Assembly (NCBI RefSeq): GCF_030163795.1
Contig: NZ_JASJOF010000005.1
Location: 124,001 to 188,000 of the forward strand
DNA length: 64,000 nucleotides
Reading direction: 5' to 3'
From: Roseicyclus marinus
GTDB taxonomy: Bacteria > Pseudomonadota > Alphaproteobacteria > Rhodobacterales > Rhodobacteraceae
This document shows positions 29,449-41,174 of the stretch, one piece after another. The notes below the pieces were generated by a model. The model had not been told where the DNA came from. It saw nothing but the letters and a program-made list of their open reading frames with translations, and made no database searches. Position numbers and translations under genes: made by a program. The number at the start of each line of letters is the position of its first letter. The first letter of the stretch is position 1.

Positions 29449-29614
29449 CGCCGTTCCTTTCCGCCGAGACAGACCAAAGCCTAGCAGGTCTCGGGACAGG
29501 CTTGAATAGACCAGCCCGTCCCGAACCCTTGGCATACCCCTTGCAATTCACCCGATGCGATCGGTTCCGCCCCGGAAACCGCCCGCTGCTGTCCGTTGCC
29601 AGAAGGGTAATGCC

Positions 29615-31855
29615 ATGGGTGAAATGCTCCGATTTCTCGACCTCACCAACTGGATCGCCAGCGGCGATGCCGTGTCTCCCGCGCTGTTCCAGACCAATGT
29701 GGTCCAATCGGCCAACACCGGCAAACCTTGGTACTCGGACAGCGTCGATACCGCGCTCGGAACTCCGACGCAGGCCGTGCAAGCAGCGCTCGACCATTTC
29801 GACATCGCCACGATCCGCTTTCCGGGCGGCGAAACCGACCTCGTGTTTTCCGGCGGCCTGCTGCAAAACGGCGATCTGTCGCCCAATATCGTCAACATCC
29901 TGAGTTTCGCCGCCGAGAACGGCATTTCGGTCGACATGGTCGTGCCGGTAGACGCGCCCGAAGGGTTCACCCGTGCCGAATTCCTGTCGCAGGTGCGCGA
30001 TTTCGCCATAGCCGTGGAACACAGGTTTCCCGGCACCGTCGGCGGCTATGAGCTCGGCAACGAATACTGGGGCGGGCGCCTCGCGAACGATGCAAGCCTC
30101 GAATTCGACTACGGCCTCAAGGCCGGACAGGTCGCCGCCGCGCTGTCGCAGGCCATGCAGGGTGCAGGCTATGATGCCGACATCTTCCTGCAGGCTTCCG
30201 GCAACCTGCGCGGTGCCTTTGGCAACAACCCGGATCTGGCCAATGCCCAGATCCAGCGTGGCTTCGAACAGACCGAAGGCGCGCTGGAGGCCCTCGACGG
30301 GATCATCCGCAACAGCTACTGGCGCGATCCCGAAACCGACGGCTTCGAAAACGACAGCGGCCTCTTTCTCGAGGATCGCGGCCTGCAACAGACCGTGCAG
30401 GGCACGACCCACGCCTGGGAGGCTTGGGCCGGGCGCGACCTGATCGAACGGGTTGGCGAATACAACATCAACCGCAACATCGCCCTTGGCGAAGACCGCA
30501 TCGACATCGGCATCCACGGCGCCTCCTACCTGCTCGAGCATGTCGAGAACCTGATCGACGCCGGCATCGACGAGGCCTTCGCATGGCCCCTGTCGCACAA
30601 CACCCAGAATGCCTACCTGTTCCGCGACGAGGACATCGCCGCCACCCGCGTGCATGACCTCGAGATCGCGACCAACACCACCCGCGCCGCGATGCTCGAC
30701 CTGCTGCGCCAGACGCTCACCGATCACCAGCTTGTCACGGGTCGCTGGACGCTGTCCCCGACACCGGGCGGCGCGAACAACGATGTCGAAGTCACCCTGT
30801 TCGAAGAATCCGATGGCGTGATCGGGGATGGTCGCGGCGAGCAGGTCGTGTTCCTGTCATCCCGTTCGGACCAGCCGATGACGGTGCAGGCCGACCTGTC
30901 CGCCTTCGTCACCGGCTTCGACACGCTGCGCGCGATTTCGATCCGCTATGCCGAAACCGGCGGCAACCTGCGCGACGCCGTGGTGACCGAGCTTGTGCCG
31001 ACCCGGATCGGGGATGGCGCGGTCTTCGAGCTTGACCTGCAGCCTTACGAGGTCGTGCAATTCGTCTTCGACCGCTTTCCTCCGGAAGAGCCCGCAGATC
31101 CGGCCCTGGACCCCGTCATCGACGACCTGCCGCCACCCGAACCCGGAACCGCTGATCTGGCACGGATCTGGGGCGGCGCAGAGAATGACACGCTCGTCGG
31201 ATCAGCCGGTGACGATGCGATCTTCGCGCGCGACGGCGACGACCAGATGGCCGGCAAGGCGGGGGCCGATCTGCTCCGGGGCGGAAACGGGAACGACACC
31301 CTGCTGGGCGGAAAGGGGGCCGACACGCTCTTTGGCGATCTCGGGCGCGACAGGCTCGACGGGAACGCGGGCGCCGACCGGCTTGACGGCGGCTATGGCC
31401 GCGACACGCTCGACGGCGGGACCGGCAAGGACACGCTGGTGGGGGGGTCTGATGAGGATACCTTCGTCCATGCCGACGCGGATCGCGGCTTCGACGTGAT
31501 CCTCGATTTCCAGATCGGCCTCGACAGCCTCGTGTTCGACGCCCCCGCCTTCACCGGGCCGGAGACGATCCGGATGATCGCCTACGACTACAACGACACG
31601 CCCTCGACCCTCATCCGGTTCGTCGGCGCGGACGGCGCCATCGACCGGTCGCTGGGCGGTATCGTCCTGAACGGCATCGTGCGACCGACGCTCGAGGATC
31701 TGAACGCCAGTTTCCCCCAACAGGTGGAGGCGCCGCCCGCGCCCCAGACCACCTCCAGCGTCTTCGACGATATCCTGGCTCTTCTGGCCATCGACCCCGC
31801 CACTCTCCCGCCCGAGATCGCGGAGGAAGAAGACCTTGCCACTTTTCCGTTCTGA
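29615..31855 (+). CDS. Secreted glycoside-hydrolase-like protein with RTX repeats
   Basis: About 746 residues. The N-terminal two-thirds looks like a (β/α)8 glycosidase: VGGYELGNEYWGG carries the Asn-Glu pair typical of the acid/base residue in clan GH-A enzymes, and IDEAFAWPLSHNTQ lies in the late barrel. About residues 380-490 resemble a β-sandwich. Residues about 515-610 contain glycine/aspartate nonapeptides (GGNGNDTLLGGKGADTL) of the RTX calcium-binding type, pointing to type I secretion; there is no Sec signal. ATG 29615 follows AGAAGGG by seven bases. No cognate exporter is present here. Substrate is unknown. Confidence 0.82.
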   Translation: MGEMLRFLDLTNWIASGDAVSPALFQTNVVQSANTGKPWYSDSVDTALGTPTQAVQAALDHFDIATIRFPGGETDLVFSGGLLQNGDLSPNIVNILSFAAENGISVDMVVPVDAPEGFTRAEFLSQVRDFAIAVEHRFPGTVGGYELGNEYWGGRLANDASLEFDYGLKAGQVAAALSQAMQGAGYDADIFLQASGNLRGAFGNNPDLANAQIQRGFEQTEGALEALDGIIRNSYWRDPETDGFENDSGLFLEDRGLQQTVQGTTHAWEAWAGRDLIERVGEYNINRNIALGEDRIDIGIHGASYLLEHVENLIDAGIDEAFAWPLSHNTQNAYLFRDEDIAATRVHDLEIATNTTRAAMLDLLRQTLTDHQLVTGRWTLSPTPGGANNDVEVTLFEESDGVIGDGRGEQVVFLSSRSDQPMTVQADLSAFVTGFDTLRAISIRYAETGGNLRDAVVTELVPTRIGDGAVFELDLQPYEVVQFVFDRFPPEEPADPALDPVIDDLPPPEPGTADLARIWGGAENDTLVGSAGDDAIFARDGDDQMAGKAGADLLRGGNGNDTLLGGKGADTLFGDLGRDRLDGNAGADRLDGGYGRDTLDGGTGKDTLVGGSDEDTFVHADADRGFDVILDFQIGLDSLVFDAPAFTGPETIRMIAYDYNDTPSTLIRFVGADGAIDRSLGGIVLNGIVRPTLEDLNASFPQQVEAPPAPQTTSSVFDDILALLAIDPATLPPEIAEEEDLATFPF

Positions 31856-31915: not shown

Positions 31916-32374
31916 CTAGGCCCCCGCCATCCGTGACGACAGGAAATCGCGGATATCGAGCAGATCCTTTTCCTCCACCGAGACATAGACCAATGCCATG
32001 TTCGTCCGTTCGCGGATCATCTCGCCGGGAAAGGGCAGATAGCTCAACTCGCGCGACCCGAAGGAGGGCGAGGCCGTACCGACCTGCCATTCGGTCTTGA
32101 GTTCCACATCCACCAGCTTCAACGCGCCCCGCCCCGCCTTGCCGGGCCGTTCCAGCGGCACACCCGCCAGCCGCAGATAGGCGGCCTTGTCGCGGGCATT
32201 GACGAACCCGTCGATGAACTGCGCGGTCAGCACCTGAAGATCAGCCGCCTCGTCCTCGGGCGTCAGATGCGAATGCAGGTGATCGGCATGGGCGTGGTTG
32301 TGCCCATGCCCGTGGGCATGATCATGGGCATGGTGGTGCCCATGGTCGTGATGGTGATGATGATCATGGGGCAT
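31916..32374 (-). CDS. Histidine-rich protein of the guanidine operon, putative nickel accessory factor
   Basis: A 152-residue protein. Residues 3-45 are dominated by histidine with Asp, Gly and Ala (for example HDHHHHHDHGHHHAHDHAH), like the metal-storage tracts of HypB, SlyD or UreE. The remaining 105 residues form a compact domain I do not recognise. The start at 32374 follows GGAGGTGG and overlaps the guanidinase stop by 11 bases, so the two are coupled. Nickel-dependent guanidinase needs HypA/HypB-like helpers in cyanobacteria, and this protein could fill that role. This is inference from composition and position. Confidence 0.75.
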   Translation of the reverse strand: MPHDHHHHHDHGHHHAHDHAHGHGHNHAHADHLHSHLTPEDEAADLQVLTAQFIDGFVNARDKAAYLRLAGVPLERPGKAGRGALKLVDVELKTEWQVGTASPSFGSRELSYLPFPGEMIRERTNMALVYVSVEEKDLLDIRDFLSSRMAGA

Positions 32375-33608
32375 TGGACCACCTCCGCCCTTCGAATTCG
32401 CCATGCGGAATGCTGACGGGCTTGTCGATATGCCGCTTGTGCGCGCCCATCTTGCCATGGGCCACCATGCTGCCCAGCACGTCCACGATCACCCGCGTTC
32501 CCATCAGCGCGGTGATGTCGCTGGTGTCATAGGGCGGGCTGACCTCGACCAGCTCCATCCCGCACAGACCCTCCGCCGCGACCTTCGACGCCAGCGCCAG
32601 CGCCTCGCGCGGCAGGAAACCGCCGGGTTCCGGCCAGCCCGTGCCGGGCACGAAGCCGCAATCGATGCTGTCGATGTCAAAGGACATGTAAACCATGTCC
32701 ACCCCGTCCCATGCCATCTCTAGCGCCATCTCGGCGGTCTTGTCCACGCCCATCTTCTCCATGTCGGACATGGTGATGATATTGGTCTCGCGCTCGCGGG
32801 CGACCTTCACCGCCTCGCGCGGGACCTGCCAACCGCCGATCCCGATCTGCACAAGGTTCTTGGCCGGCACATTGGGCAGAAGCGTCGAATGGAACCACGG
32901 CGTCGTGTGCATCCGTTCATCGAGGTCTTTCTCCTGGATGTCGGCGTGACGGTCGAAATGCACGATCCCGATCTTTTTCGACGTGCATTCCGCGATGCCC
33001 CGCACGCAGGGAAAGCCGATGGAATGATCCCCCCCGATCATCACCGGGAAGCTGCCGGAACTGAACACATGGGACACCGCCCGGCTGATCTGGTCGAAGG
33101 ATTTCTCGAGGTTCGCGGGGATCGTGAACACATCCCCCGCATCACACAGCGTCATCTGCTCGCGCAGATCCACGCCCATCTCGTAATTGTAGGGGGTGTA
33201 AAGCGCGCTGATCTTGCGCACGCCCTGCGGCCCGAACCGCGTGCCGGGGCGATAGGTCGTGCCGCCGTCGAAGGGGATGCCAAGGACCGTGGCATCGTAA
33301 TGCTGCACCTCCAGCACATCCTCGGCATAGGGCGCTTTCAAAAACGTGTTGATGCCCGCGTAATGCGGCAGTTCCCCGCGCGCGAAGGTCGGGATCGACT
33401 TGTCGTCGATGCTTTCGGCCCCGGTCAGCCCCATCCTCAGCGCCCAGCGGCGTTCCTCGTCCCAGCGGGTGCCGGGAATATCGGCCTCGGCGCGCATCGC
33501 CTTCCACCCCAGAAGCTTGGTCAGGTCGGGGTGATGGGCGCGGCGGTCACGGTCGGGCCGGTCGCCCGGATTATGCGACCGACTGCGGCGCGGGGTCAGG
33601 AAATCCAT
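32364..33608 (-). CDS. gdmH: Guanidinase-type ureohydrolase (guanidine hydrolase, nickel-dependent family)
   Basis: A 414-residue ureohydrolase (arginase/agmatinase fold). The metal motifs GGDHSIGFP, FDRHADIQE and SFDIDSIDCGFVPGTG are present, with MHTTPWFHSTLLPN between them. The extended N-terminus and the conserved PHYAGINTFLKAPY region recall the cyanobacterial guanidine hydrolase (Sll1077, GdmH) rather than agmatinase. It would split guanidine into urea and ammonium. A guanidine-I riboswitch heads this operon, which strongly supports the substrate. The start follows AGAGGA and overlaps the ATPase gene by 38 bases. I assign the symbol by family recall. Confidence 0.88.
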   Translation of the reverse strand: MDFLTPRRSRSHNPGDRPDRDRRAHHPDLTKLLGWKAMRAEADIPGTRWDEERRWALRMGLTGAESIDDKSIPTFARGELPHYAGINTFLKAPYAEDVLEVQHYDATVLGIPFDGGTTYRPGTRFGPQGVRKISALYTPYNYEMGVDLREQMTLCDAGDVFTIPANLEKSFDQISRAVSHVFSSGSFPVMIGGDHSIGFPCVRGIAECTSKKIGIVHFDRHADIQEKDLDERMHTTPWFHSTLLPNVPAKNLVQIGIGGWQVPREAVKVARERETNIITMSDMEKMGVDKTAEMALEMAWDGVDMVYMSFDIDSIDCGFVPGTGWPEPGGFLPREALALASKVAAEGLCGMELVEVSPPYDTSDITALMGTRVIVDVLGSMVAHGKMGAHKRHIDKPVSIPHGEFEGRRWSNAP

Positions 33609-34353
33609 CTTGGTCCTCTTTCAGTTGATAGGGGATGCCGCCGTTCCGGGCGTCAAAATCATAGGTGATCGTCGCGCCGAAGGCGGCGGGGTCATGCGGG
33701 TCCCAGCGGGTCTTGTCGAAGACGATGACGCGGTCGCCCAGCTTGAACGCCTCGGGCAGGTCGTGGGTGACCATGAAGACGGTCATCTTTGTCTCGCCCC
33801 GCAAATCCTGAAGGAAGCGGTGCATCTGCTCCCGCGTCCCGGGGTCGAGCGCGCCGAAGGGTTCGTCGAGCAGGAGGATACGCGGCTTCGCGGCCAGCGC
33901 CTGCGCGATGGCCAGCCGCTGCTGCATCCCCCCCGACAGCGCCGCCGGGTATTGCCCCGCCACATGCGCCAACCCGATCCGCTCCAGCACGGCATCGGCC
34001 CGCGCCCGCGCCGCGCGCTTCACACTGCCGAACAGGCCACCCAAAGGCTGCGACAGGCCTTCCGCCGCCACGATATTGTCCTGCACGGTCAGGTGCGGAA
34101 AAACCGAATAGCGCTGGAACACGATGCCGCGCGTCCGGTCCGGCTCTCCCTTCAGGGGCGCACCATCTACGGTGATCTGCCCGCGCGTCGGCCGCTCCTG
34201 ATCCAGCAGCAGCCGCAGGAAGGTGGATTTCCCGCACCCCGATGCGCCCACAATGGACACGAATTCCCCCTCGCCCACGCTCAGGTTCACCCGCTCCAGG
34301 ATCGACCGCGCCCCGTAGCTCTGGAAGATGTCCGTGACCTCGACCAGGCTCAT
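33571..34353 (-). CDS. ABC transporter ATP-binding protein, guanidine uptake operon
   Basis: A 260-residue ATPase of the SsuB/TauB (nitrate/sulfonate/taurine) class. Walker A is GASGCGKST, the signature LSGGMQQRL and Walker B ILLLDEPFGALDP, with the switch histidine in VTHDLPEA. The start at 34353 overlaps the permease stop by ATGA. It carries an unusual C-terminal tail ending PDPAPQSVA that overlaps the guanidinase start. The riboswitch and enzyme context indicate guanidine import rather than sulfonate import. Confidence 0.92.
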   Translation of the reverse strand: MSLVEVTDIFQSYGARSILERVNLSVGEGEFVSIVGASGCGKSTFLRLLLDQERPTRGQITVDGAPLKGEPDRTRGIVFQRYSVFPHLTVQDNIVAAEGLSQPLGGLFGSVKRAARARADAVLERIGLAHVAGQYPAALSGGMQQRLAIAQALAAKPRILLLDEPFGALDPGTREQMHRFLQDLRGETKMTVFMVTHDLPEAFKLGDRVIVFDKTRWDPHDPAAFGATITYDFDARNGGIPYQLKEDQDGFPDPAPQSVA

Positions 34354-35162
34354 CCCCGCGCCTCCGCCCAAGGGTAGGCCCACCGCGACAGCCGCGCGAG
34401 GCCCCAGTCGATCAGGAAGGCCAAAACCGTGATCCACGCCACATAGGTCAGGATCACATCCATCGCGAGGAACCGCCGCACCAGAAAGATCCGGTAGCCC
34501 AGCCCCGCTTCCGACGCGACCGCCTCCGCCGCGATCAGGAACAGCCACGCAGGCCCCAACGACAGCCTCACCGCCGAAATCAACCGCGGCATGATCTGCG
34601 GCAGCGCGACGGACACCGCGATGGCAAGCGTGCTGGCCCCCAGCGTCTGCGCCTTCACCAATTGCTCTTGCGGCAATTCCAGCGTGCGCGCGCTCAGGTC
34701 GCGGATCAGGAAAGGCGTGATGCCGATGGCAATGAGCGCGATCTTGGCCGTATCCCCCACCCCCAGCGTGATGAACAGGATCGGCAACATCGCCAAGGGC
34801 GGGATCATCGACAAGACGGCGACAAACCCCTGCAAGCCTGTCCGCACCACCGGCACCAAGCCGATGGCCAACCCAAGGCACAGACCGATCAGTGCCGCGA
34901 TACCGACACCCGCCCCCAACAGCGACAGGCTCGACACCGTATCACCCCAGAACAGGATCTCGCCCGACCGCCGGTCCTCCTCGGTCAACAGCCGCCACGC
35001 CGTGGACCCCAAAGTGGCAAAGGACGGCAGGATGCGGTCTTGCGGGTTTTCCGCCAACCGCGCCGCCGATGCCGCGGCATAGGCCAGCCCCACAAGGACA
35101 AAGGGCAGCGCCACCAGCGCCGCCCGCCCCGCGGGCCCCGGATGCCGGTTGATCAGGCGCAT
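34350..35162 (-). CDS. ABC transporter permease, guanidine uptake operon
   Basis: About 270 residues with six predicted membrane segments, of the SsuC/TauC permease class. The cytoplasmic coupling loop is around ELPQEQLVKAQTLGAS and GPAWLFLIAAEAVASEAGLGY, both typical of this group. It starts 26 bases after the binding-protein gene and overlaps the ATPase start. Together the three genes form a complete importer. ATG 35162 is the best start (MRLINRHPG), giving normal family length. Confidence 0.92.
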   Translation of the reverse strand: MRLINRHPGPAGRAALVALPFVLVGLAYAAASAARLAENPQDRILPSFATLGSTAWRLLTEEDRRSGEILFWGDTVSSLSLLGAGVGIAALIGLCLGLAIGLVPVVRTGLQGFVAVLSMIPPLAMLPILFITLGVGDTAKIALIAIGITPFLIRDLSARTLELPQEQLVKAQTLGASTLAIAVSVALPQIMPRLISAVRLSLGPAWLFLIAAEAVASEAGLGYRIFLVRRFLAMDVILTYVAWITVLAFLIDWGLARLSRWAYPWAEARG

Positions 35163-35188
35163 GACCCGCTGCCCCCGCGCGCGCCCCG

Positions 35189-36253
35189 TTACAGCGCCCC
35201 GTCGGCGGCCATCTGCATGTAGGTCGGATCGAACCGCAGCTGGATATTCGCAGGATCGCCCGTCACCACCCCGCCCGGATATTCGATGCCGACGAAATCC
35301 GCGCTCGGCGCGCCCTCGCCCAGAATGCCGCGCTCGAAGAGGAATTCGGCCACGCTCACCATCGTCTCGGGCAATTCCGCGCTTTCGACAAAGGCGACCG
35401 CATCCGCCGCATCCCAAAACATCTGGGTCGAGGCCAGCTGCGCATCATAGCCCGCCAGATCCGTCCCCGAGGCCTCCGCCATCGCGGTGCGGGCTGCGAC
35501 GCCCTCGGGCGTGTCGGACGACATGATCGCCATCAATTCGTACCATGCCCCCACCAGCGCGCGGCCGAAATCGGGGTTCGCCTCCAGCACCTCGGTGTTG
35601 ACCACCATCATGTCGATGATCTCGCCCGGGATATCGGCCGAGGTGAACAGGATATTGGCCGCCGGGTCTTCCGCGATGGTCGACACCAGCGGGTTCCACG
35701 TCACCACTGCCTGCACGTCATCGGTCTGGAAGGCCGCGATCATGTCCGCGTCGGACGTGTTGATGACCCCCGCCAGATCGCGCTCCTCCAGCCCCACGCT
35801 CTCCAGCGCGCGCGCCAGCAGGTAATGGGACACCGACAATTCCACGAGGTTCACGGGCATCCCGGCCAGATCGGCCAATCCGCCCTCCCCCTTCAGGATC
35901 ACGGCGTCATTCCCATTGGAGAAATCGCCCACGATCAACGCGGTCGTATCCACCCCCGACCCCGACGGGATCGATAGCGTGTCCATGTTGGTGACCGAAA
36001 CCCCGTCGAATTCGCCGGCCGTGTAAAGGTTGATCGATTCCACGTAATCGTTGATCTGCACGATCTCGACATCGATGCCGTAGCGCTCGGCCCAGGCATC
36101 CATGATGCCGCTTTCCTCCAGATAGCCCCAGGGCATCCAGCCCACGTAGATCGACCACGCGACGCGGAATTCCGTCCGCTCCTGCGCCGTGGCGAACCCG
36201 GGAGACAGCGCCAGCGACAGCGCGGTTGTGGTGGCTAGGGCAAGTCTGGTCAT
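35189..36253 (-). CDS. Periplasmic substrate-binding protein, guanidine ABC transporter
   Basis: A 354-residue binding protein of the SsuA/ThiY/NMT1 type. The signal peptide spans residues 1-24 (AFATAQ-like cleavage at GFATAQ). The mature domain opens FRVAWSIYVGWMPWGY and has two lobes. It is the first gene of the operon and starts behind GGAGGAACCGACG. A guanidine-I riboswitch lies 90 bases upstream. Homology alone would suggest nitrate, sulfonate or taurine, but the riboswitch and the downstream guanidinase make guanidine the likely ligand, comparable to cyanobacterial guanidine importers. Confidence 0.9.
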   Translation of the reverse strand: MTRLALATTTALSLALSPGFATAQERTEFRVAWSIYVGWMPWGYLEESGIMDAWAERYGIDVEIVQINDYVESINLYTAGEFDGVSVTNMDTLSIPSGSGVDTTALIVGDFSNGNDAVILKGEGGLADLAGMPVNLVELSVSHYLLARALESVGLEERDLAGVINTSDADMIAAFQTDDVQAVVTWNPLVSTIAEDPAANILFTSADIPGEIIDMMVVNTEVLEANPDFGRALVGAWYELMAIMSSDTPEGVAARTAMAEASGTDLAGYDAQLASTQMFWDAADAVAFVESAELPETMVSVAEFLFERGILGEGAPSADFVGIEYPGGVVTGDPANIQLRFDPTYMQMAADGAL

Positions 36254-36340
36254 CGTCGGTTCCTCCGATCGGATGCGAATGTCCAAATGTCCGACCGGGA
36301 AATATGTTCAGGGAGCGGCCGAACCTGATCTTGGCGCAGT

Positions 36341-36446
36341 GCTCTCCCGGGATTTTGTCCCGCCGTGTACCGCACGGGATTTGGCCCGCGCGGCGGCATT
36401 TCTCGGACCTGACCCGCAGTTTTGCGGCGGAACCCTAAATGCCCTG
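36341..36446 (-). promoter_or_regulatory. Guanidine-I (ykkC) riboswitch
   Basis: On the minus strand the conserved blocks occur in order: TTTAGGGTTCCG (about 36440-36429), CAGGTCCGAGAAATGCC, TACACGGCGGGACAAAA and TCCCGGGAGA (ending at 36343). Pairings fit the family fold: GGCATT with AATGCC (P1), CCGCA with TGCGG, CCGCGCGGG with TCCCGTGCGG (P2) and CGGGA with TCCCG (P3). The aptamer ends about 90 bases before the binding-protein ATG. GGGAG of P3 can alternatively pair with CTCCC at 36315-36311, a possible switch. Confidence 0.93.
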
Positions 36447-36647
36447 CCCCACCAGCCTCGGGCGCGGCCCGCGCATCTGTCAAAAGCCGCAGCGCGGAAT
36501 CCCCCAGATCGCAGCATCTGCCCGAAAAAGCGGCGCTTGCGCGCAGGATCTGACGCATTATGCGGCAGGCTCACGGGCCAATCACCCCCGACAGGGTCAT
36601 GGATTCCCGTCTTGTGCGCTTGCGCCGTGAAAGCCTATTTTCAAGCC

Positions 36648-37493
36648 ATGGCCGCCGCTGAAAAAACATCCTTCCTCACACGGATTCGGGCGGCCCTGCC
36701 CGGCCTGCACCCCAGTGAGCGCCAACTGGCCGAGGCGATCCTGAACTTTCCCGGCCAACTCGCCAGCTACACGGCCACCGAACTCGCGCAGATGGCGGGC
36801 GTGTCGAATGCCACCGTCACGCGCTTTGTCCGCCGCATCGGCTACGCCTCCTTCGAAGAGGCGCGGCAGGCCGTGCGCGCGGAACAATCGGCCGGTACGG
36901 CGCTGTTCCGTGTGAACCGCACCACCGCCCCGCCCGAAGGCCGGATCGCCCGCCACCTCGAACAGGGACACCGCAATCTCGCCGACAGCCTCGCCCATCT
37001 GAACGAGGCCGAGATCGCCGAACTTGTCGCCACCATGGCCACTGCGCGCCGCCTGCGCATGATCGGCTTTCGCGCGGGCCAACCCTTTGCCCGCTACCTC
37101 GCGTGGCAGACCATTCAGGTCCATGCCGATGTCGCGGCCCTGCCCCGCGACGGCGAAACGCTGGCCGAAAGCCTGGCAGACCTCGGTCCGGGCGATTGCG
37201 TCCTCGTCTTTGCCCTGCGCCGCCCGCATAGGCAGATCACCGCCCTGATCCGCGAAATCGCCGACAGCGGCGCGGCGCTGGCGCTGATCGGCGATCTGCC
37301 GGGCCTGCCCGCGCTGCCCGCGCGCTGGCACCTGCCCTGCGCCACACCGGGTGCGGGGGCCTTGTTTGACCATGTGGGCGTGATGGCGCTCTGCGGGCTT
37401 CTGGCCTCCGCCCTGATCGAGGAAAGCGGGCCCGAGGGCCGCACCCGGCTCAGCGCGATCGAGAAAATCCACGACGCGCTTGACGAGATCTGA
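36648..37493 (+). CDS. RpiR/MurR-family transcriptional regulator
   Basis: A 281-residue regulator with an N-terminal HTH_6 domain (about 1-80; LHPSERQLAEAILNFP and SNATVTRFVRRIGY) and a C-terminal SIS domain (about 120-260) that normally binds phosphosugars or related ligands. I chose ATG 36648, which begins MAAAEKTSF; the open frame extends far upstream but there overlaps the guanidine riboswitch region and lacks motifs. The gene lies 190 bases upstream of a TRAP transporter, and two matching inverted repeats sit in that gap, so it probably controls the transporter operon. Confidence 0.9.
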   Translation: MAAAEKTSFLTRIRAALPGLHPSERQLAEAILNFPGQLASYTATELAQMAGVSNATVTRFVRRIGYASFEEARQAVRAEQSAGTALFRVNRTTAPPEGRIARHLEQGHRNLADSLAHLNEAEIAELVATMATARRLRMIGFRAGQPFARYLAWQTIQVHADVAALPRDGETLAESLADLGPGDCVLVFALRRPHRQITALIREIADSGAALALIGDLPGLPALPARWHLPCATPGAGALFDHVGVMALCGLLASALIEESGPEGRTRLSAIEKIHDALDEI

Positions 37494-37590
37494 GCGTGCC
37501 GCGCCCGGCAGAACCTGCATCTTCCCTGCACAGTCCCCCCTCAATCCTGCCCGTTTCTTGGGCGCATCCGGTCTGAAGCCGCATTTTTGA

Positions 37591-37639
37591 GTGTGAAATT
37601 AATTTTTCATACTACTGGATTTGTGAAAAAGTGGTTTCC
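37591..37639 (+). promoter_or_regulatory. Two operator-like inverted repeats upstream of the TRAP operon
   Basis: TGAAA-N6-TTTCA at 37594-37609 (extended GTGTGAAA/TTTCATAC) and TGAAA-N6-TTTCC at 37624-37639 share the same arms and spacing and are exactly 30 bp apart, about three helical turns. They lie in the AT-rich stretch just before dctP. TGAAA-type palindromes are typical for RpiR-family regulators, and an rpiR gene is adjacent. Confidence 0.65.
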
Positions 37640-37683
37640 CAGATGGCATCGATACCCAGCCTCGATTCGAAAAGGACCATGCG

Positions 37684-38664
37684 ATGACCCAGCTGAAACC
37701 CCTCCTGCTCGCGGCCGCCACGGGCCTTGCCCTGCCTGGCCTCGCCACCGCGCAGACCGTGCTCCAGATCAACTCCTCCCTGCCCGAAGGCTCCTTTGCC
37801 CATGTCTTCTTGCAGGAATACGAAACCCGGCTCGAGGCTGCGACCGACGGCGGCGTCGACGTGCAGATCTTCATGTCGAACACGCTCGGCTCCGAGGAAG
37901 ACGTGCTTCAGGGCCTCGCGCTCGGCACGCACCATGCCTCGCTCTCGGCCTCAGCTATTGCCCAGATCAATCCGCGCACCGCGATCTTCGATCTGCCCTA
38001 CCTGTTCGAAGACCGCGCCGCCGTGCAGACCTTCGCCGCCAGCCCCGCAGGCGAGATGATGGCCGCAGGCTTCGAAGGTACCGGCATGGTGCTTGCCGCC
38101 ATGTGGGACAACGGCTTCCGGCAGATCACCAACAGCGTGCGGCCCATCGTCGTGCCCGCCGATCTCGAAGGTCTCAAGATCCGCACCCCCACCAGCCGCC
38201 AGCGGGTCGAGATGTTCAACACGCTCGGCGCCAATGCCACGCCGCTGAGCTTCGGCGAGGTCTATTCCGCGCTCGATCAGGGCGTGATCGACGGACAGGA
38301 AAACCCGGCCCAGATCGTCGAAAGCGCGCGCCTCTACGAGGTGCAGGAATACATGTCGCTCTCGAACCATGTCTACCTGCCCACCTTCCTCGTCTTCGGC
38401 GAACCCTACCTCGCAGGCGTCGACCCGGCGCTGGCCGAGGCGATGGTCACCGTCGCCGCCGAAACCGCCGCTTGGACCTTCGAATGGGGCGACACCACCG
38501 ATGCCGAGGTCGTGGCATCCCTCGCTGACCGCATCGCGATCAACGAGATCGACTTCGCCGCCTTTCAGGCCGCCGCAGCACCCCTCTACGACAGCCCGAC
38601 CTTCGTGGACGTGATCGGTGCCGACATGATCGCGGCCACCCGCGAAGCACTGGGCCTCCAGTAA
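37684..38664 (+). CDS. TRAP transporter substrate-binding protein, DctP family
   Basis: A 326-residue periplasmic protein with a signal peptide (cleavage near LATAQ, residue 24). The DctP signature LKIRTPTSRQRVEMF carries the arginine that salt-bridges a ligand carboxylate, followed by SFGEVYSALDQGVIDGQENP. It captures a carboxylate-containing solute for the DctQM membrane pair. The ATG follows AAAAGGA by seven bases. The ligand is unknown; the linked racemase-family gene hints at an amino-acid, hydantoin or hydroxy-acid derivative. Confidence 0.93.
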   Translation: MTQLKPLLLAAATGLALPGLATAQTVLQINSSLPEGSFAHVFLQEYETRLEAATDGGVDVQIFMSNTLGSEEDVLQGLALGTHHASLSASAIAQINPRTAIFDLPYLFEDRAAVQTFAASPAGEMMAAGFEGTGMVLAAMWDNGFRQITNSVRPIVVPADLEGLKIRTPTSRQRVEMFNTLGANATPLSFGEVYSALDQGVIDGQENPAQIVESARLYEVQEYMSLSNHVYLPTFLVFGEPYLAGVDPALAEAMVTVAAETAAWTFEWGDTTDAEVVASLADRIAINEIDFAAFQAAAAPLYDSPTFVDVIGADMIAATREALGLQ

Positions 38665-38689
38665 GCCCACCCGACAGGAGCAGCCCGCC

Positions 38690-39211
38690 ATGTCCACCCT
38701 CACCTCGCTCATCGCCCGCCTCGACCTTTGGCTCACGCGCGCGCTCGATGCGGCGGTGATCGGGCTGGCCGGGCTGCTCTTCGTCCTTCTCAACATCGCG
38801 GTCGTCACCCGCTTCCTGTTCAACAATTCCGTTTCCTGGTCCGAGGAATTGCCGGCCCATGTGCTGGCCGCCCTCACCTTCATCGGCGCGGCCTACCTGA
38901 CGCGCACCTCGGAACATCTCGGCTTCGACGCGGTGATCCGGCTCTTTCCCGAAACCGTGAAACGGATCGTGATGGCCGGAAACCTGATCCTCATGGCCTT
39001 CTTCGGCGCGCTTCTGGCTTGGTATGGCGGCATCGCCGCCGCCAGCTTCGGCAGCCGGATGCTGATTTCCGTCGACCTTCCGATGGCGCTCTTCCGCTAC
39101 GCCATGCCCGTGGGCGGCGCGCTGATCGCGCTCATCAGTTTCACGCGGCTTGTCGGTCTCTTGACCGGGCAAGTCGTCCCCGATGACCTCCTGCCCGAAA
39201 GCGACGCGTGA
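38690..39211 (+). CDS. TRAP transporter small membrane subunit, DctQ family
   Basis: A 173-residue protein with four membrane segments and the NNSVSWSEELPAHVL motif, which is characteristic of DctQ. It links the binding protein to the large DctM subunit. AGGAG lies eight bases before the ATG. Its TGA overlaps the DctM ATG (TGATG), so translation is coupled. Confidence 0.9.
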   Translation: MSTLTSLIARLDLWLTRALDAAVIGLAGLLFVLLNIAVVTRFLFNNSVSWSEELPAHVLAALTFIGAAYLTRTSEHLGFDAVIRLFPETVKRIVMAGNLILMAFFGALLAWYGGIAAASFGSRMLISVDLPMALFRYAMPVGGALIALISFTRLVGLLTGQVVPDDLLPESDA

Positions 39212-40497
39212 TGTTTCTCGATCCCGGCTGGATCATCCTGATCCTTCTCGTCACCCTTCTGATCGCGGGCCTGCCCATTGCCTTCGTGCTGGGCGTGACG
39301 GCGGCTACGATGATCCTGCTCGACCCCGCTGTCGTGCCCCAGATCATCGGGCTGATCCCGTTTGGCGGCGCGAACAATTACCTGCTCGTCGCGGCCCTGT
39401 TGTTCATGATCGCGGGCGAGGTGATGAACCAGGGCCGCATCGCCGAGAAACTGATCGCCTTCGCCTCCAGCCTCGTGGGCCATATCCGCGGCGGCTTGGC
39501 GCACGTCAACATCCTCACATCGCTGTTCTTTTCCGAGATTTCGGGCACCGCCACCTCGGATGCCGCGGCCATCGGCTCGGTGATGATCCCGCAGATGAAG
39601 AAACGCGGCTACCCGGTGGCCTTCGCCGCCGCCGTCACCTCGACCTCCGCGACCATGGCGATCATCGTGCCGCCGTCCCTCAACCTGATCCTCTACGCCT
39701 ATGTCGCCAACGCCTCGATCGCCGAGCTGTTCGCGGCGGGCATCGTGCCGGGGGTCATGGTCTGCGCGCTCCTGATGATCACGGCCTACATCATCTCCGT
39801 CCGCAAAGGCTATCCGACCGAAGGCGCGTTCCAGTTCCGCCGCGTGATCGAAACCGGCAAGGATGCGGCCATTCCCCTGACCCTTCCAGTGCTGATCCTC
39901 GTCGGCATCCTCGGCGGCATCTTCACCGCGACCGAGGCAGGCGCCATCGCCGCCTTCTGGTCCATCGTGCTGGCCGCCTTCCTCTACCGCACCATCCGGC
40001 TCGGCAACCTGATCGACACGTTTCGCATCGCGGGCAAGCGCAGCGCGATGCTCATGTTCATCGTCGCCACCTCGACGCTTCTGGGCTGGTACCTGACCAA
40101 CCAGCAGATCCCCCAGACCATCGCGCAGGGCATCCTTGGCCTGTCGGACAATTACTGGGTCGTGCTTCTGGCGATCAACGTCTTCTTCCTTCTGGCAGGA
40201 ACCATCATCCACGGCACACCCGCGATCTTGATGCTGGTGCCGATCTTCCTGCCGCTTGCCGATCAACTGGGCATCGACCGGGTGCATTTCGGCCTGATCC
40301 TGACCATCAACCTCGGGATCGGTCAGCAGACGCCGCCCGTCGCCTCGGTCGTGCTGATCACCTGCGCCATCGCCAAGATCTCGATCGCCAAGATCATCCC
40401 GCCGATGATGGCCTTCATCGCCGCGATGCTGGTGGCGCTCATCCTCGTCAACGTCTTCCCGGCCATCGTGCTCTGGCTGCCCTCCGTGATCCTCTGA
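39211..40497 (+). CDS. TRAP transporter large membrane subunit, DctM family
   Basis: About 428 residues with roughly 12 membrane segments. It uses a sodium gradient to move the bound solute inward. Typical motifs are SEISGTATSDAAAIGSVMIP and the second-half counterpart NLGIGQQTPPVASVVLITCA. ATG 39211 was chosen over an immediately preceding GTG. Its stop overlaps the racemase-like gene start (TGATG), tying that gene to the transporter. Confidence 0.93.
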   Translation: MFLDPGWIILILLVTLLIAGLPIAFVLGVTAATMILLDPAVVPQIIGLIPFGGANNYLLVAALLFMIAGEVMNQGRIAEKLIAFASSLVGHIRGGLAHVNILTSLFFSEISGTATSDAAAIGSVMIPQMKKRGYPVAFAAAVTSTSATMAIIVPPSLNLILYAYVANASIAELFAAGIVPGVMVCALLMITAYIISVRKGYPTEGAFQFRRVIETGKDAAIPLTLPVLILVGILGGIFTATEAGAIAAFWSIVLAAFLYRTIRLGNLIDTFRIAGKRSAMLMFIVATSTLLGWYLTNQQIPQTIAQGILGLSDNYWVVLLAINVFFLLAGTIIHGTPAILMLVPIFLPLADQLGIDRVHFGLILTINLGIGQQTPPVASVVLITCAIAKISIAKIIPPMMAFIAAMLVALILVNVFPAIVLWLPSVIL

Positions 40498-41174
40498 TGC
40501 GGCTTCTGATCGTCAATCCCAACACCTCGACCGGGGTGACGGCCCGCATCGACCGCGCGGCACAGGCCGTGGCGCGTCCGGGCGACCGCTTCACCACGAT
40601 CTCGGCGGCCTTCGGCCCCTCCCTGATCGTCACCGAGGACGATGGCCGCGCCGCGACCCAAGGCGTTCTGGCCGCCGTCGCCCGCCACCCCGGGCCGGTC
40701 GAGGGCGTGATCCTCGCCTCCTTCGGGGATACCGGGGCCGAGGAATTGCGCGCCGCCCGCCCCGACCTGGCCGTCATCGGCATCGCCGAGGCCGCCTTTG
40801 CCCGCACCGCCGACATCGGCGGCCCCTTCGCCATCGTCACCTTCGCCCCCGAGGTCGCGGGCCCCTTGGGTGACAAGGCGCTGGCGCTCGGCCATGGCGA
40901 CAGGCTCCTTGGCATCGCCCATCCGCCTGCCCCGCTCTGCCATGACCCCGCCGAGGTAGCCGAGGCGCTCTTGCCCGACCTGCGCCAACTCTGCATCGAC
41001 GCCGCAGCCGGGGGGGCCCACAGCATCATCCTTGGCGGCGGGCCCTTGGCCGGGCTCTCCGCCCGCATCGCCCCCCATTGCCCGGTGCCGGTCATCGACG
41101 GCACGCAGGCCGCGATCGACAGCCTGCGCCGTCGCCTGCACGACACGCAGCCCCGCGCAGCGACCCAAGCCTAA
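40497..41174 (+). CDS. Asp/Glu/hydantoin racemase superfamily protein lacking catalytic cysteines
   Basis: A 225-residue protein starting MRLLIVNPNTST, the hallmark of the hydantoin racemase branch. In active racemases a cysteine sits in each half, in contexts like ACFGD and LGCAGM. Here these positions read LASFGD (Cys to Ser) and LGGGPLAG (Cys to Gly). The remaining cysteines (LCHDP, LCIDAA, HCPVP) are elsewhere. It is the last gene of the TRAP operon and is translationally coupled to dctM. It may be a decarboxylase, isomerase or binding protein on the transported compound. The cysteine assignment is by eye. Confidence 0.8.
   Translation: MRLLIVNPNTSTGVTARIDRAAQAVARPGDRFTTISAAFGPSLIVTEDDGRAATQGVLAAVARHPGPVEGVILASFGDTGAEELRAARPDLAVIGIAEAAFARTADIGGPFAIVTFAPEVAGPLGDKALALGHGDRLLGIAHPPAPLCHDPAEVAEALLPDLRQLCIDAAAGGAHSIILGGGPLAGLSARIAPHCPVPVIDGTQAAIDSLRRRLHDTQPRAATQA

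Follow-up and report, generated by a model that had tools for sequence, protein, structure and literature searches.

A Probable Guanidine Import and Hydrolysis Operon of Roseicyclus marinus and a Candidate Nickel-Loading Family Linked to Guanidinase

The window analyzed here is a stretch of 64,000 nucleotides from Roseicyclus marinus (contig NZ_JASJOF010000005.1, positions 124,001 to 188,000), and coordinates in it are counted from its first letter. Downstream of a guanidine-I riboswitch aptamer it carries five genes on the minus strand, coding for a substrate-binding protein, a permease, an ATPase, a ureohydrolase, and a histidine-rich protein. The function of this operon is almost certainly the import and hydrolysis of guanidine. 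The pathway is already known, being of the gdmH kind found in Synechocystis, and the new part is the accessory gene that codes for the His-rich protein. It is rather likely that this protein is needed for metal loading of the guanidinase, and the explanation taken as a whole, a guanidine-inducible operon with a dedicated nickel-loading accessory, is very likely. We would give even chances to a more general proposal, namely that the accessory proteins are a new family of nickel metallochaperones dedicated to one enzyme, with an unrecognized fold and a movable His tail, which matures guanidinase across Alphaproteobacteria, replaces HypA/HypB, and is controlled by a guanidine-I riboswitch lacking a terminator.

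In the mechanism that we propose, guanidinium would bind the aptamer and raise expression, the ATP-binding cassette (ABC) transporter would bring in guanidine, and the enzyme, of GdmH type, would hydrolyze it to urea and ammonium, with a urease encoded elsewhere in the genome completing the breakdown. The His-rich tail of the accessory protein would gather nickel, its small core domain would probably dock on the guanidinase, and the protein would load the metal site, standing in for both HypA and HypB.

Aptamer and Operon Structure

The aptamer (36342–36449, minus strand) matches RF00442 over its full length (1–107) with 87.7 bits, for a gathering threshold of 63 (E = 2.4e-14). It is the sole match above gathering that cmscan gives in the whole window, and a permissive scan of 36150–36560, up to E = 10, finds no other Rfam family there. 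An earlier note, made from the sequence alone, had described a near-perfect guanidine-I aptamer upstream of the five genes and proposed a check against this family; the aptamer is indeed present, but the right boundary given at 36446 has to be moved, as the match extends to 36449. The entire genome of 3,620,588 bases contains this single match. Among relatives, for which 50 guanidinase loci were submitted and 49 genomes searched, there is exactly one RF00442 match per genome in all 49, and it is always positioned within the guanidinase locus.

A set of 61 genomes, consisting of that of R. marinus and 60 relatives, gives a similar picture. The enzyme (counted at E = 1e-80 or better) is present in ten of them, and the aptamer (counted with strict filters) is found in nine of these ten and in one further genome, G034, which is discussed with the transporter. 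In the tenth guanidinase genome, G020, no aptamer is found either by the strict genome search or by cmscan of the 10.5 kb around the enzyme and accessory genes. The locus of this genome (L183) has the enzyme and the accessory gene, a more distant transporter (with a binding protein 41% identical), and about 3 kb between the ATPase and the enzyme.

The five genes were all located as the earlier note had described them, on one strand behind the aptamer. Overlaps exist between permease and ATPase, ATPase and enzyme, and enzyme and His-rich protein, and the sole gap is of 26 bases. Because the same genes recur behind the same aptamer in relatives, the association of this gene set with the aptamer is more than chance. 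A second set, hereafter the 80-locus set, consists of the best 80 of the 583 stretches encoding a relative of the enzyme in a scan of species genomes; we take its source names to be those of Rhodobacterales, the remainder being alphaproteobacterial bins. The nearest named relatives in this set include Roseibacterium sp. SDUM158017, whose enzyme is 93% identical, and Rhodobacterales bacterium HKCCSP123, with 95% identity.

The Ureohydrolase Is of the Guanidinase Type

The enzyme (32364–33608, minus strand) matches the arginase family of Pfam with 256.5 bits. In a sequence search of the whole PDB, two guanidinases come at the top (7esr/7oi1 with 550 bits and 9fek with 537 bits), and the third match has only 175 bits. 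The cut-off of the agmatinase family TIGR01230 is missed (170.7 vs. 174.3 bits). The cited part of PMC11410670 gives 9FEK as the guanidinase of Nitrospira inopinata and 7OI1 as GdmH of Synechocystis; it also gives Thr105, His222, and Trp313 as the requirement for a guanidinase, with Glu344 marked as well. In the alignment to 9fek, residues T118, H234, W325, and E355 of the window enzyme fall on all four signature positions, the chain numbering of 9fek being taken as two ahead of that in PMC11410670, as without this offset the letters disagree. The enzyme matches the solved guanidinases far better than any other ureohydrolase, and the doubt that the earlier note cast on the "agmatinase" label is supported. 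The further reading that the riboswitch ties the operon to nitrogen scavenging from guanidine is supported by the RF00442 match and by the guanidinase type of the enzyme.

The motifs MHTTPW and PGTGWPEPGG are found in all 79 enzymes that were parsed from the 80-locus set (all but that of L091). In one locus (L020, from genome G008) the enzyme match is split near residues 356–359, which reflects a frameshift or else an error in sequencing. More divergent enzymes also occur. In G549 (L176/L179), there is a guanidinase-like ureohydrolase with 60% identity, a Thr for the signature Trp, a His-rich segment inside the protein (HHDHSHMHD), and no accessory gene, preceded by what is, by eye, a different binding protein; this enzyme perhaps acts on another substrate. 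In the guanidinase-like enzyme of Embleya (L114), 54% identical, Thr likewise substitutes for the signature Trp, and the MH..PW motif was not found.

An Accessory Family That Follows the Guanidinase

The His-rich protein (31916–32374, minus strand), for which we propose the role of nickel-loading factor, has no significant match in Pfam, NCBIfam, or PDB. The earlier note had not assigned it a function apart from that of the operon. In the Pfam and NCBIfam scans, the best hit of the window protein is DUF3240 (E = 0.53), and the best hits among 77 scanned members of its family have E = 0.039 for Pfam and 0.1 for NCBIfam; all these sub-threshold matches were set aside as chance. Profile searches of PDB give nothing below E = 0.19, and neither the HypA domain (PF01155) nor the HypB GTPase (TIGR00073) is matched. 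The AlphaFold model of the full-length protein has a mean predicted local distance difference test score (pLDDT) of 74.3, and the model of the core has a pLDDT of 91.4 and a predicted template modeling score of 0.76. With these, Foldseek (one aligner) finds 0 matches in PDB at E = 0.001, the best being 0.31 for the full model and 0.21 for the core. A literature search gave no title or opening abstract describing a His-rich guanidinase accessory; an earlier mention in the Funck 2022 paper on GdmH is possible.

In 79 of the 80 loci, the gene directly following that of the enzyme is the accessory gene; the remaining contig (L044) ends at the enzyme. The distance from where the enzyme match stops to the accessory start is −7 to 440 bases. 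Within the set of 61, it is present in the same ten genomes as the enzyme; G047 gives an extra partial match (residues 3–72, E = 8.7e-7), which the core profile does not recover. Broader samples lead to the same result. In a phylum draw of 398 genomes, with an enzyme threshold of E = 1e-100, the enzyme is found in seven genomes, that of R. marinus included, and the accessory gene lies alongside in all seven. In a class draw of 385 Alphaproteobacteria, 12 genomes have the enzyme, 13 the accessory family, and 11 both, the two genes being adjacent in each of the 11 (Fisher p = 1.6e-18, not corrected for kinship). The sole genome of this draw with only the enzyme is G549, in which a Thr replaces the signature Trp, so that all 11 Trp-bearing enzymes have the accessory gene. 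The two genomes with only the accessory gene hold remnants. In G590 (L177, 7100–7354), only the C-terminal half of the gene is left, and the ABC transporter next to it is of a different type. In G808 (L178/L166), a broken binding-protein gene runs into the accessory gene, the permease, ATPase, and enzyme being missing between them, and this fusion may have been left by a deletion or be an artifact of the assembly.

Among 11 plasmid records with the enzyme, six were inspected, and the accessory gene is present in those of Limimaricola and Sinorhizobium fredii. The gene follows the enzyme and not the transporter, since one locus (L150) has aptamer, enzyme, and accessory gene together without this transporter (within 14 kb), and another (L184, in G034) has the transporter with neither the guanidinase nor the accessory gene beside it.

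A Putative Link to Nickel

The accessory protein starts with MPHDHHHHH, and no hydrophobic signal is visible by eye in this region. In the 80-locus set, 78 members are full length; these contain 7 to 28 His per protein and three Cys in all. Members from other families show core identities of 24% to 61% and a variable tail: the His-rich tail is at the C end in L036 and G808, and the protein of L165 has one His in its whole length. HypA, which together with HypB assists other Ni enzymes of this kind, is absent from seven of the ten guanidinase genomes, including that of R. marinus, and the same seven have no HypB over the cut-off; in R. marinus, there is no HypA at E = 0.001, and the HypB-like matches are below the cut-off (74 vs. 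121.2 bits). In S. fredii, a HupE/UreJ nickel permease (PF04955, 157 bits) is encoded directly behind the accessory gene (L112, 9703–10284), and a homolog of this HupE, 44% identical, occupies the same place in L153 (8837–9304). These neighbors support the link to nickel, although they are not a rule. From the tail, the linkage with the enzyme, and the absence of HypA and HypB, we infer that the accessory protein is probably a nickel metallochaperone.

The gdmH gene of Synechocystis PCC 6803 is sll1077, and its operon includes two Ni2+-delivery proteins, HypA/HypB-like. This operon resembles that of the window in joining riboswitch, ABC transporter, and guanidinase, but in place of its two Ni2+-delivery proteins the window has a single His-rich protein that belongs to no known family. 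With an undescribed family where the nickel-delivery pair would be expected, the operon of R. marinus is a variant of the GdmH kind. The cited part of PMC12186494 reports that the Synechocystis riboswitch (guanidine-I), ABC transporter, Ni-dependent guanidinase, and accessory nickel-delivery genes are in one operon. Characterized relatives are activated by nickel-delivery proteins or chaperones, according to excerpts of the same paper and of PMC11399263. N. inopinata shares with the window the guanidine-I riboswitch and a guanidinase (537 bits to the window enzyme), but its locus has an amino acid-polyamine-organocation (APC) permease instead of an ABC transporter. The operon of the metformin/dimethylguanidine hydrolase (MefH/DmgH) contains nickel accessory genes, namely hypA and hypB, with HupE downstream (PMC11399263, cited sections). 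It is similar to the window in having a ureohydrolase of Ni-dependent kind (nickel use being presumed for the window enzyme) with accessory genes, and differs in having a two-subunit enzyme, which scores at most 133 bits to the window enzyme, and this hypA and hypB pair.

Transporter, Urease, and Carboxylase

The transporter is encoded by genes for the substrate-binding protein (35189–36253), the permease (34350–35162, PF00528), and the ATPase (33571–34353, PF00005), all on the minus strand. The earlier note had expected homology to give the transporter the name of sulfonate/taurine; instead, with 527.1 bits for a cut-off of 333.9, the binding protein passes TIGR03427, the "putative urea ABC transporter substrate-binding protein," and is probably a binding protein for guanidinium. 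In the 80-locus set, the ATPase is present in all 80 loci, the permease in 79, and the binding protein in 78; where one is missing, the contig starts too late to include it. The same type of transporter lies behind a guanidine-I aptamer in G034 (L184), with a urea/guanidine carboxylase on the same contig, and this is the only one of the 61 genomes where such a carboxylase is over the cut-off. Guanidine carboxylase operons can thus share with the window the riboswitch and this type of transporter, as in G034, but they follow an ATP-dependent carboxylase route, without guanidinase or His-rich gene in that genome. Together with the TIGR03427 match, this context fits a predicted import of guanidine, without being a proof of it.

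Urease alpha, the only urease subunit searched, is found in all ten guanidinase genomes, including that of R. marinus, where it is elsewhere in the genome, and G008, where it is in two pieces. A different arrangement is found on a plasmid of Rubrobacter (L109), where a guanidine-I aptamer, a guanidinase, a sodium:solute symporter, and urease genes are close by, with a formamidase gene on the opposite strand in between. The accessory gene is absent from this locus, which also has an RF02514 (5_ureB_sRNA) match on the minus strand.

Alternative Explanations

Belonging to this family is not enough to settle the substrate, and the enzyme could act mainly on another guanidino compound, such as agmatine, guanidinobutyrate, or methylguanidine, with the riboswitch sensing guanidine for some other reason; indeed, a side reaction has been raised as a possibility for the Nitrospira enzyme (PMC11410670, cited part). 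However, the score of the window enzyme to its best guanidinase match is 375 bits above that to the next enzyme, the signature Trp is retained, and, among the 61 genomes, the aptamer occurs only with a guanidinase or a carboxylase, and we regard this alternative as very improbable. It is likewise very improbable that the operon serves mainly for the detoxification of guanidine and not for nitrogen supply. Guanidine riboswitches often accompany efflux genes, according to the part of PMC12186494 cited above, but the transporter here belongs to a type that imports with the help of a binding protein, no exporter is present in the operon, and the genome codes for urease alpha.

Several observations weigh against the proposed role of the accessory protein. 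The statistics linking enzyme and accessory gene ignore kinship. The gene is absent from four actinobacterial guanidinase-like plasmid loci, and the cited part of PMC11410670 describes comammox guanidinase loci without a nickel chaperone and calls the mechanism of nickel loading in N. inopinata unclear, as no chaperone was found; not every guanidinase therefore needs this gene. HypB-like matches, weaker than the cut-off, are present in all seven genomes lacking HypA, and they are probably UreG because several adjoin urease. Two of these seven genomes are incomplete (G008, 73%; G020, 82%). Both HypA and HypB are encoded in the remaining three guanidinase genomes, unlinked to the guanidinase locus, on a different contig or at a distance of about 250 kb, and HypA is, if anything, more common in genomes with the enzyme (3/10) than in those without (4/51; Fisher p = 0.08). 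The enzyme thus shows no avoidance of HypA, and the claim is limited to its occurrence without HypA/HypB. HupE was not found behind the accessory gene in L150–L152, leaving two positives in five tested loci from other families, and a search of the 80-locus set starting from the S. fredii protein did not find it either. Finally, the family alignment has no invariant His or Cys in the core, and, given also the single His of L165, metal binding may not be the essential act of the protein. A core conserved without residues of the metal type, and one His where 78 members have 7 to 28, would suit a small partner protein that regulates or stabilizes the guanidinase, or one that buffers nickel, in which the His tail is secondary and the operon otherwise the same. 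This seems possible but rather doubtful, as nickel-delivery genes accompany the characterized guanidinase and metformin hydrolase operons, HypA and HypB are missing here, and HupE is found behind the gene in two loci. Under the preferred reading, which is nickel loading by the accessory protein, this gene is a single testable candidate for such loading in organisms without HypA/HypB, and the pair of guanidinase and accessory gene would mark guanidine use in Alphaproteobacteria. Public annotation can hide such use, because the gene names of one Limimaricola plasmid do not show it: there the enzyme is an "agmatinase family protein," the accessory a "hypothetical protein," and the binding protein a "putative urea ABC transporter substrate-binding protein."

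Leader and Mode of Switching

The leader, from the aptamer to the first start codon (36254–36341, minus strand), contains a Shine-Dalgarno sequence, GGAGGA, at 36261–36266. Guanidine-I riboswitches typically act through a terminator (PMC12186494, cited part). The terminator scan gave no terminator-like site in the leader of the window, its only minus-strand site being inside the permease gene. For comparison, 81 leaders were supplied and 78 used, L041 and L070 having no detected aptamer and L032 no start; two of the 78 have T5 in the stretch that separates the aptamer from the start codon. Control is likely to be exerted at translation or through Rho. The predicted accessibility of the Shine-Dalgarno sequence over the 78 leaders is the same for the full leader (mean of 0.21) as for the platform by itself (0.20), and hence the folding predictions demonstrate neither an ON mechanism nor the way in which the start site would be exposed.

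A helix just after the aptamer covaries in a group of 44 leaders that share one type, with −15.9 for the native pairing and −12.7 ± 0.35 for the permuted ones, 0 of 5000 permutations being as good, in a test that ignores kinship and does not include the leader of the window, which is of another type. A segment adjoining this helix gives no signal (3720 of 5000 permutations). In the window, a possible helix corresponding to it was read by eye between 36316–36324 and 36289–36297. The octamer GTTCCGCC is present in 49 of the 78 leaders (e.g., L034, 4249–4345), and of the 44 leaders of the covarying type, 40 contain a complement to it further downstream and 20 contain one within the aptamer. Strand exchange with the aptamer and a pseudoknot are both possible roles for GTTCCGCC on this pattern, neither being established.

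Flanking Genes

Next to the riboswitch, on the plus strand (36648–41171), there are divergent genes for an RpiR-type regulator, a tripartite ATP-independent periplasmic (TRAP) transporter, and an Asp/Glu/hydantoin racemase, for which a link to guanidine is not shown. Beside the other end of the operon, a convergent gene (29555–31855, plus strand) codes for a protein with RTX (repeats in toxin) calcium-binding repeats.

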